64,000 nucleotides of DNA from an uncultured Pelagibacteraceae bacterium (GTDB lineage Bacteria > Pseudomonadota > Alphaproteobacteria > Pelagibacterales > Pelagibacteraceae), in contig CACFTX010000001.1 of NCBI GenBank assembly GCA_902569405.1, positions 434,001-498,000 on the forward strand. Reading direction: 5' to 3'. Below, piece after piece: positions 10,536-13,079 of this stretch. The notes below the pieces were generated by a model. It had not been told where the DNA came from, did no database searches, and was given only the letters and a program-made list of their open reading frames with translations. The stretch's first letter is position 1, and every line of letters starts with the position of its first letter. The position numbers and the translations under genes were made by a program.

Positions 10536-11527
10536 TGAAAAAATTTTTAAATAAATTAAAAAATAAAGAAAATTTAACTTTCGATGAATCTAAGCAAGCA
10601 TTTGAAATTTTAATGAGCGGTAAGGCTTCCGATAAAGAAATATATGATTTTCTTACATTGCTTTCAGAAAAAGGAGAAGTTTCTGATGAAATAGGTGGTG
10701 GTGTATATGTATTAAGAGAAAAATCAAAAAGAGTTAATGTTAAAGACTGTATAGATACATGTGGAACTGGTGGTGATGGAAAAAATACATTAAATATATC
10801 TACAGCTTCGGCTTTGTTGCTAGCAAGTATGGGAATTAAAGTTGCAAAACATGGAAATAAAGCTGTTTCATCAAAATGTGGTTCTGGAGATGTTTTGGAG
10901 ACCTTAAATATAAAAATTAATTTAGAACCTAAAGATGTTGAAAATCAAATTAATAAAAATAATTTTGGTTTTATGTTTGCTCCAAATTATCATAATGCAA
11001 TGAAATATGTTGGTCCTACCAGAAAAAAAATAGGTAAAAGAACTATATTTAACATGATTGGTCCATTAAGCAGTCCTGCGTTAGTTGAAAGACAAGTTGT
11101 TGGTGTTTTTGACAAAAAATTACTTAAAACTTTTGCAAATGGACTTAAGAATTTAAATATTAAATTTGCATGGATAGTAAATAGTGAAGATGGTTTAGAT
11201 GAAATTTCACCTTATGCTAAAACTAACATTATACAATTAAAAAATGATCAATTGTCAGAAATTACAATTAACCCAAGTGAGTTGAATATTAATGCTGAAA
11301 ATTTTTCAAACTTAGTAGGTGATGATTCAAAGTTTAATGCTAATAAAATAATCGAAATCTTCACAGGTAAAGATAATGATTTTTCAAAGGCTGTTTGCTT
11401 AAATGCTGCTGCAGGTCTTATTGTATCAGAAAAACATAATAATTTTAATAAAGCTTATATAAATGCAAGAGAACATATTTTAAACGGAAATGTTTTTAAA
11501 CACTTAACTAATATACAAAATGGCTAA
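10535..11527 (+). CDS. trpD: Anthranilate phosphoribosyltransferase
   Basis: The 330-residue enzyme transfers phosphoribose from PRPP to anthranilate. The PRPP-binding CGTGGDGKNTLNIS motif is near residues 79-92, followed by KHGNKAVSSKCGSGDVLE and FMFAPNYHNAMKYVGP. Length is standard. It overlaps trpG by one base and trpC by 8 nt. TrpD and TrpG are separate genes here rather than fused. Confidence 0.96.
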   Translation: MKKFLNKLKNKENLTFDESKQAFEILMSGKASDKEIYDFLTLLSEKGEVSDEIGGGVYVLREKSKRVNVKDCIDTCGTGGDGKNTLNISTASALLLASMGIKVAKHGNKAVSSKCGSGDVLETLNIKINLEPKDVENQINKNNFGFMFAPNYHNAMKYVGPTRKKIGKRTIFNMIGPLSSPALVERQVVGVFDKKLLKTFANGLKNLNIKFAWIVNSEDGLDEISPYAKTNIIQLKNDQLSEITINPSELNINAENFSNLVGDDSKFNANKIIEIFTGKDNDFSKAVCLNAAAGLIVSEKHNNFNKAYINAREHILNGNVFKHLTNIQNG

Positions 11528-12311
11528 AAATACACTTGAAAAGATTATTGAAAAAAAAATCAATAAAATCAATATTATAAAAAAAAATATTACAATCGAC
11601 TCTTTAAATGATAAAATTAACAAAAATAATTCGTTTATTAATTTTAAAGAAAAAATAGAAAACAATATTAAATTAGATAAAATTTCAATTATTGCTGAAA
11701 TTAAAAAAGCTAGTCCTTCTGCTGGTATTATTATTAAAGATTACGACCCTTTAAAAATTGCTAAAATATACAACTCTAACAAAGCTACTTGCTTATCTGT
11801 TTTAACTGAAGAGGATTTTTTCTTTGGTAATTTAACACACATATATAAAATTAAGGAAAAAATAAATTTACCAATCTTATGTAAAGATTTTTTTATAGAT
11901 CCATTTCAAATTCATTTAGCAAAAAGTTATGGTGCTGATGCAATCTTGATTATTATTGCAGGTATAAATGATAAAGTTGCAGATCAATTATACGAAGAAG
12001 CTCTTAAATTAAAAATGTCAATAATTGTAGAAGTTCATACTGCTGAAGAAGCAAAAAAAGCTCTTAGATTTAATGAAGCATTAATAGGTATAAACAATCG
12101 CAACCTTAAAACACTTAAAACACAAATAAGCACAACTTATGAACTTAACGATATTTTAACAAATCACACTGGACCATTAATTTCTGAAAGTGGAATTAAA
12201 ACGAAAGAAGAACTTTTAGAAATTAATAAAAATACGAACATAAAAACTTTTTTAATTGGTGAATCACTTTTAAAGAACTTAGATAAAAATTCAATTTTTT
12301 CAGTTCTTTAG
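11520..12311 (+). CDS. trpC: Indole-3-glycerol-phosphate synthase
   Basis: The 263-residue TIM-barrel enzyme cyclises carboxyphenylamino-deoxyribulose phosphate to indole-3-glycerol phosphate. IIAEIKKASPSAG carries the catalytic Lys, followed by LSVLTEEDFFFG, ILCKDFFIDPFQI, GINNRNLKTL and LISESGI. It is a stand-alone enzyme, not fused to TrpF. It ends the trp cluster, and trpF, trpB and trpA are not in this window. The next gene, lexA, starts 87 nt downstream; moaC and moeA, which separate trpC and lexA in many alphaproteobacteria, are absent. Confidence 0.96.
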   Translation: MAKNTLEKIIEKKINKINIIKKNITIDSLNDKINKNNSFINFKEKIENNIKLDKISIIAEIKKASPSAGIIIKDYDPLKIAKIYNSNKATCLSVLTEEDFFFGNLTHIYKIKEKINLPILCKDFFIDPFQIHLAKSYGADAILIIIAGINDKVADQLYEEALKLKMSIIVEVHTAEEAKKALRFNEALIGINNRNLKTLKTQISTTYELNDILTNHTGPLISESGIKTKEELLEINKNTNIKTFLIGESLLKNLDKNSIFSVL

Positions 12312-12360
12312 TTAAATTAACCGCTATTTTGTTGAATTTTAAGCTATTGTTAATCTAGAA

Positions 12361-12397
12361 GAACTTTTGTAGAACAGATTCTGTACGATATTTGTTC
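12361..12397 (+). promoter_or_regulatory. Four-box LexA operator array upstream of lexA
   Basis: The sequence reads GAAC-N7-GAAC-N7-GTAC-N7-GTTC, with boxes beginning at 12361, 12372, 12383 and 12394, exactly 11 bp apart. GAAC-N7-GAAC is the reverse complement of the GTTC-N7-GTTC SOS box established in several alphaproteobacteria, so the first two boxes are a perfect match. The third and fourth boxes extend the same spacing. The last box ends one base before the lexA ATG (12399). This strongly suggests autoregulation of lexA, possibly by two cooperatively bound dimers. Confidence 0.75.
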
Positions 12398-12398
12398 T

Positions 12399-13079
12399 AT
12401 GCTAACTAAAAAACAAAAAAACCTGCTTTTATTTATCAACAAGAAGTTGAGAGCTTCTGGTGTGTCACCTTCTTATGAGGAGATGAAAGAGTCTTTAAAC
12501 TTAAGATCAAAATCTGGAATTCATAGGCTAATTAGCGCTTTAGAAGAAAGAGGTTTTATTAGAAGGCTTGCTCATAAAGCAAGAGCTTTAGAGGTTATAA
12601 AGTTACCAGAAACAGCTTCTGCTAATGATATATATAATAGTTTTTCACCTAGTATTATTAAGGGTGGATTGGATGAAGAAAATGTTAGAAATGGTGATTC
12701 TGCTGAAGTACCTGTATTAGGAAAAATAGCAGCTGGAACACCTGTTGAAGCTATTCAAAATGAAGTTTCGAGAATTCCATTGCCAAGTAATTTAGAAAAA
12801 AATGGTGAATATTTTGGTTTAAAAGTTCAAGGAGATTCAATGATAGAAGCTGGTATAAATGAAGGTGATACAGTTATTGTAAAAAAATCTGATACAGCTG
12901 AAAATGGAAAAATTGTAGTTGCTTTGATTGATGATCATGAAGCAATGCTTAAAAGAATTAGACGAAAAGGCAAAACTATAGCTCTTGAAAGCGCCAATAG
13001 GAACTATGAAACTAAAATCTTTGGTCCAGATAGGGTAAAAGTTCAAGGTGTTTTAGTATCTTTATATAGAAACTTCTAA
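12399..13079 (+). CDS. lexA: LexA, SOS-response repressor
   Basis: The 226-residue repressor has an N-terminal winged helix ([15 protein letters not shown], then [17 protein letters not shown]) and a C-terminal S24 self-cleavage domain. The cleavage site Ala112-Gly113 ([10 protein letters not shown]), catalytic Ser147 (QGDSMIEAG) and Lys185 (EAMLKRIRR) are all present. RecA-stimulated self-cleavage derepresses DNA-repair genes. The start chosen matches the first helix of known LexA. The operator runs to within a base of the ATG and no Shine-Dalgarno is visible; a TACGAT -10-like hexamer at 12384-12389 would give a nearly leaderless transcript, which is inference. Confidence 0.97.

Follow-up and report, generated by a model that had tools for sequence, protein, structure and literature searches.

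In Escherichia coli, the lexA promoter carries two SOS boxes and is subject to negative autoregulation. SAR11 bacteria rank with the sea's most abundant cells and are known for having few regulators. In the parts of the sources available to us, the boxes of E. coli are described as palindromes of the form CTGT-N8-ACAG (PMC3323433), the alphaproteobacterial LexA box is GTTC-N7-GTTC (PMC3323433, PMC9578287, PMC12700426), and a single LexA box is the rule in Caulobacter, at about 97% of its SOS promoters (PMC12700426). The literature searched, available in part and with older work outside it, describes neither paired LexA operators upstream of lexA in Alphaproteobacteria nor a SAR11 LexA regulon, and the parts read contain no footprints, binding assays or mapped starts for SAR11 lexA. 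The SAR11 locus described here resembles the alphaproteobacterial type in that one of its sites, operator A, is a perfect instance of the box, and in that SAR11 recA, umuD and lexA all carry N7-spaced half-sites. It differs in that the second site, operator B, mostly has a GTAC half-site, and in that two opposite-facing operators stand at one promoter. As in E. coli, the gene for the repressor itself has a promoter with two LexA operators, but the SAR11 sites are direct or near-direct repeats that face opposite ways, with B abutting the start codon. The box type and the double lexA operators of E. coli are known; two such operators placed head to head before lexA in this class may be new.

The window, by which we mean the whole 64,000-nucleotide stretch of DNA that was analyzed, contains the following features at this locus, the regulatory elements being predictions.

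12347..12352, plus strand: predicted -35 element TTGTTA of the lexA promoter, its TTG 17 bp from TAGAAC in 110/110 sequences of the window's family and 11/11 of the sister family
12361..12375, minus strand: predicted LexA operator A, GAACTTTTGTAGAAC, which reads GTTC-N7-GTTC on this strand; half-sites identical in 109/109 distinct sequences; found in 91/107 other alphaproteobacteria
12370..12375, plus strand: predicted -10 element TAGAAC, lying over the second half-site of A, with a 17-bp spacer to TTG in 110/110 sequences of the window's family
12376..12382, no strand: variable linker between the operators, N7 here, with 34 different sequences among 109
12382..12384, plus strand: predicted transcription start, placed from the -10 position, about 7 nt after TAGAAC
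12383..12397, plus strand: predicted LexA operator B, GTACGATATTTGTTC, which takes up almost all of the predicted 5' leader; half-sites GTAC/GTTC in 103/109 and GTTT/GTTC in 6/109 distinct sequences
12399..13079, plus strand: lexA, 226 aa; TIGR00498, PF01726, PF00717

The four half-sites read GAAC (12361-12364), GAAC (12372-12375), GTAC (12383-12386) and GTTC (12394-12397), and are followed by a single T and the lexA ATG at 12399. Reading the sequence thus confirms the original prediction, which had placed four boxes up against this start codon and had called the first pair a perfect alphaproteobacterial SOS box; operator A is indeed a perfect GTTC-N7-GTTC instance. The ORF at 12399-13079 scores 168.4 bits against the whole-protein family model TIGR00498 (cut-off 110.95) and exceeds the cut-offs of both Pfam LexA_DNA_bind (PF01726) and Peptidase_S24 (PF00717). 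Its translation contains an Ala-Gly pair (IAAGTP), the presumed site of RecA-stimulated self-cleavage. A gene named by eye as trpC precedes lexA, with a gap of 87 nt (window 11520-12399), and the accessible part of a study of Sargasso Sea contigs places lexA always next after trpC (PMC2395257). Because lexA follows trpC, read-through from the trp genes may provide an extra supply of lexA outside LexA control.

From base composition, the four-box array is expected 4e-6 times per 64 kb in its exact form and 6e-4 times in a loose form. The genome scan that had been proposed as a check returned one loose match in the window's own genome against 0 for the control, and on these figures chance was rejected as the source of the array. 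The GAACN7GAAC pair is unremarkable by itself, occurring at least once in 50/100 shuffles of the window, and is explicable by chance. The same genome has 13 perfect copies of GTTCN7GTTC, compared with 14 of the reversed control pattern; ten lie inside ORFs and three are intergenic, upstream of lexA, umuD and a phosphomannomutase-like gene.

Conservation was read from the DNA upstream of lexA with duplicates removed, which left 110 distinct sequences from the window's own SAR11 family (f1, seven genera) and 11 from its sister family (f2). The f1 set comprises 78 sequences from named contigs (drawn from the best 80 of 542 candidates and assigned to f1 on 89-98% protein identity) and 32 from other f1 genomes; L003, with 13 nt upstream, and the partial matches L141 and L153 were excluded from the lexA counts, which are counts of related sequences and not of independent events. 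All four half-sites are kept in 110/110 f1 sequences. Operator A has the two GTTC half-sites and N7 spacing of the alphaproteobacterial consensus in every one. Operator B, in the form GTAC-N7-GTTC, has the N7 spacing in 110/110 but not the exact consensus, since one half-site departs from GTTC: box 3 is GTAC in 104 sequences and GTTT in 6. Read on the opposite strand, operator B is GAACAAATATCGTAC, and so is of the same form as the recA box of SAR11, GAACAAAATGTGTAC. Among 109 distinct f1 sequences, half-site identity is 1.000 in A and 0.974 in B, compared with 0.532 in the flank, and spacer identity is 0.934 in A and 0.687 in B. Box 4 lies 1 nt from the ATG in 97 of the 110 and 2 nt in 12; the single 0-nt case, L140, is an artefact of a tblastn start that is one base off.

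The within-pair N7 was set by the search pattern, which every f1 sequence matched, whereas the gap between the pairs varies: N6 in 88, N7 in 21 and N5 in 1. The middle spacing in the relatives is therefore mostly 10 bp, the window belongs to the N7 (11 bp) minority, and the uniform 11-bp period that had been supposed to run through all four boxes is not general. Because the spacing within pairs is fixed and that between pairs is not, the N7 pairs are the units, and the four boxes are best read as two head-to-head LexA operators, A and B. Occupation of the array by two LexA dimers is the natural reading; the original prediction had suggested two or more. It is hardly credible that boxes 2 and 3 instead form one central inverted-repeat site with boxes 1 and 4 as accessories. 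GAACA...TGT does flank the center in 105/110 f1 sequences, but the gap between boxes 2 and 3 drifts over N5-N7 in f1 and N5-N12 in other alphaproteobacteria while the 1-2 and 3-4 spacings stay constant, and recA and umuD carry N7-spaced pairs.

A pattern search found the array in 223/244 f1 genomes and 0/53 f2 genomes, siting at lexA being looked at among the matches listed; G146 and G210 have two matches each, and the reversed control gave 4 matches in all 297 genomes. Of the 21 f1 genomes without the array, 19 show no match of lexA grade (among the matches listed, their best E is 2.8e-12 or worse); in G121 lexA begins 31 bases into its contig, at base 31, and in G108 the lexA match begins only at residue 11. 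In f2, whose genomes are also small (0.7-1.3 Mb), 33/53 have a lexA-grade match (E < 1e-50, among the matches listed). All 11 f2 upstream sequences keep operator A together with a TTG at 17 bp, and operator B was found in 0/11. The outcome named beforehand as fatal to the array, in which only the first pair is conserved while boxes 3 and 4 drift freely, is thus absent from f1 and is what f2 displays.

The class as a whole gives a similar picture. Of 192 alphaproteobacterial genomes, 149 had a lexA match at 1e-30: 3 were SAR11, 107 were read upstream and 39 were not fetched. Operator A occurs in 91/107 and A with B in 66/107, against 0.64 and 0.0 in dinucleotide shuffles. As in SAR11, these upstream regions have a TTGAC-type hexamer, 17 bp and TAGAAC, with A in the promoter and B downstream. 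They differ in the gap between A and B, which ranges over N5-N12 and is mostly N10 (38/66) rather than N6-N7, in box 3 (GTTT 43, GTTG 18, GTTC 3 and GTTA 2 of 66), and in the distance from the end of B to the ATG, which is 17-198 nt; a purine-rich 4-mer (six kinds allowed) stands at -20 to -4 in 97/107. A search demanding GTT at box 3, which thus did not count G000 and G003 (both GTAC), found the array at 87 places in 81 of the 192 genomes, compared with 8 for the reversed control. Because 80 of the 87 places, in 79 genomes, have a lexA match no more than 700 bp downstream of them (A coming first in 79 of the 80), the arrangement is both common and nearly private to lexA. Judged from this spread rather than from a tree, it is probably ancestral in the class, and the distribution suggests that f2 lost operator B. 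Twenty-five of the 91 alphaproteobacteria with A have no strict B. Admitting degenerate forms of B (5/6 matches) recovered one further alphaproteobacterium only, but this test is uninformative because a gap control of 20-27 gave 11/91.

As far as sequence can tell, then, operator B is dispensable: the array is found in 0/53 f2 genomes, B in 0/11 f2 upstream sequences, and a strict B is missing from those 25 class members. This raises the alternative that only A binds LexA, with B being kept for the composition of the start region, for another regulator or for ribosome binding. The retention of A without B in f2, the weaker half-site of B (GTAC or GTTT) and the higher count of A than of A with B across the class all lean that way. 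Nevertheless, we consider it unlikely, since B holds the strict N7 spacing and the recA-type form and since in other alphaproteobacteria, where 17-198 nt separate its end from the ATG, it cannot serve as start-codon context.

The centers of the two pairs are 21-22 bp apart, or about two helical turns, in 109/110 f1 sequences (gap N6 or N7), and 25 bp apart at N10, the mode in other alphaproteobacteria. Binding of two LexA dimers to one face of the DNA, which the original prediction had proposed, is therefore plausible in SAR11 but would not be expected at 25 bp in most other alphaproteobacteria, so that strict phase, to judge from the spacing, is no class-wide requirement.

A TTG followed after 17 bp by TAGAAC is invariant in f1 (110/110, anchored on box 2). 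With a cruder anchor, the first TAGAAC in the last 45 nt, TTG stands at 17 bp in 94/109, and the 15 others carry TAGAAC also at box 1. Across the class, 79/91 carriers of A have a TTGACA-like hexamer (5-6/6) at 13-21 bp from the TAGAAC position, 65 of them at 17 bp. The TA preceding box 2 is kept at lexA in 83/91 alphaproteobacteria and 110/110 f1 sequences, whereas umuD boxes read AAGAAC in 28/28; for this reason it is more probably a promoter feature than a part of the LexA motif. TAGAAC matches TATAAT at only 4/6 positions and a simple promoter scan found no forward promoter at lexA, the argument for this promoter being one of conservation.

From the invariant TTG-N17-TAGAAC, it follows that the predicted -10 element overlaps box 2, that transcription would start near 12382-12383, and that the predicted lexA leader is short, about 16 nt, rather than missing. 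The original prediction had instead hinted at a leaderless transcript. On a leaderless account, transcription would start at the ATG, the -10 element would lie inside B, and B would control the initiation of transcription and translation together. An ATG only 1-2 nt past box 4 would suit such an arrangement, as would the weak TATAAT-like hexamers (4/6 matches, best of four offsets) found 5-8 nt before the ATG in 82/109 sequences. These hexamers, however, sit in the variable spacer of B (e.g. CTTAAT, CACAAT, GATATT and TAGGTT), and the TTG-N17-TAGAAC that is invariant in f1 is shared with alphaproteobacteria in which a median of 60 nt separates box 2 from the ATG downstream. We therefore regard a leaderless lexA as quite improbable, although a second, downstream start from these hexamers is conceivable.

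TAGAAC lies 21-24 nt from the ATG in 110/110 f1 sequences, and among the 91 other alphaproteobacteria with A the distance from box 2 to the ATG is 25 nt or less in only two. The nearness of operator B to the start codon is best read as compaction of the leader in f1. Folding of the leader RNA (12383-12440) was no better than that of shuffles (z 0.57, with 128/200 shuffles at least as good). Shine-Dalgarno 4-mers (GGAG, GAGG, AGGA) at -20 to -4 occur in 7/109 lexA leaders. Their absence was rejected as a special feature of lexA, as only 6/55 long ATG ORFs in the window have one (12/55 with a wider set).

By sequence, the locus has the layout of a double-operator lexA promoter, with A over the predicted -10 and B over the predicted leader. 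We consider it likely that LexA represses lexA through both operators and that the leader has been shortened, the binding of LexA to A and to B, and the start site itself, being predictions from the sequence. The promoter would then be autoregulatory, with two predicted head-to-head LexA operators. A dimer on A should exclude RNA polymerase, because A occupies the spacer of a sigma-70-type promoter (TTGTTA-N17-TAGAAC) and extends over its -10. A second dimer, on B, would presumably block open-complex formation or escape, because B covers the predicted start site and the short leader. When RecA triggers the self-cleavage of LexA, both sites should empty, lexA would be transcribed, and repression would be restored. 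With two sites, lexA may be more tightly or steeply repressed than the single-site recA and umuDC. The four-box, leaderless reading is in this way replaced by two operators on an ordinary-looking promoter, and the result is a testable map of the SAR11 SOS switch, with two predicted operators at lexA and one each at recA and umuDC. That the double lexA operator is common in Alphaproteobacteria bears on how the strength of autorepression is set.

A wider reading, which seems to us quite possible though short of probable, is that the head-to-head pair is a device of the whole class, kept almost exclusively for lexA, which would give a steeper self-shut-off than at SOS genes with a single site, regardless of how the two sites are phased. 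SAR11 would then have packed promoter, both operators, start and ribosome landing zone into 52 bp, with B doubling as almost the entire 5' leader.

The other SOS genes of SAR11 carry boxes of the same kind. The recA box, GAACN7GTAC, is present in 28/28 relatives (of 29 loci, L324, a recA fragment, was dropped), as is the umuD box, GAACN7GAAC, in 28/28. A stricter motif built from these boxes, GAACWWWWNNNGWACA, occurs at five places in the window's own genome, compared with two for the reversed control: at recA, at both lexA operators, upstream of the phosphomannomutase-like gene, and where one ORF ends, with 13 nt to go to the following one. The umuD box of this genome is one base off the motif. 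In the accessible parts of two expression studies, lexA, recA, umuD and umuC rise during infection of SAR11 by phage HTVC027P (PMC12753301), and late in iron stress lexA, recA and mucA fall into one cluster (PMC2864753). Both agree with a lexA-recA-umuDC group and, to the extent of what those sources contain, support the dual-operator SOS reading.

The umuD LexA box (L295:2105-2119, with umuD on the minus strand) abuts the start codon, at 0 nt in the own genome. It lies 0-4 nt from the next ATG in 22/28 relatives, a crowding like that of operator B at lexA. A promoter-like pair, TTGACT-N17-TATTAA, was noted by eye just upstream of this box. Further upstream, a conserved block (L295, about 2154-2206) contains three GANTC sites (GATTC, GATTC and GACTC). 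Three GANTC within 130 nt are found in 19/28 relatives (L325-L352) and one or two in the five f2 genomes; within the same 130 nt, L338, L339, L340 and L342 have none.

At recA, a GANTC follows the LexA box by 11-13 nt in 23/23 f1 and 0/5 f2 genomes (L295:3979-4043, L296-L323). Its context is TGATTCG in 13 of the 23, and 20 agree with YGAKTCK. According to the part of the source available, the GcrA-CcrM motif of Caulobacter in its extended form is TGATTCG or YGAKTCK (PMC7987155). Because the GANTC by the recA box resembles this motif, methylation linked to the cell cycle may control recA in SAR11.

The remaining intergenic site is a LexA-like box, GAACATTTATAGAAC, located 50 nt ahead of a gene identified by eye as phosphomannomutase/phosphoglucomutase-like (G000:C1:230324-230339, L083). 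GAACN7GAAC is kept there in 19 of the 21 relatives read (L358-L378), L379 having given no start region. This box possibly marks an unexpected SOS gene or the operator of a divergent neighbor. Upstream of it lies an inverted repeat resembling ACAACTA-N-ATGTTGT, a loose form of which is found in 19/21 of the same relatives (L358-L378).
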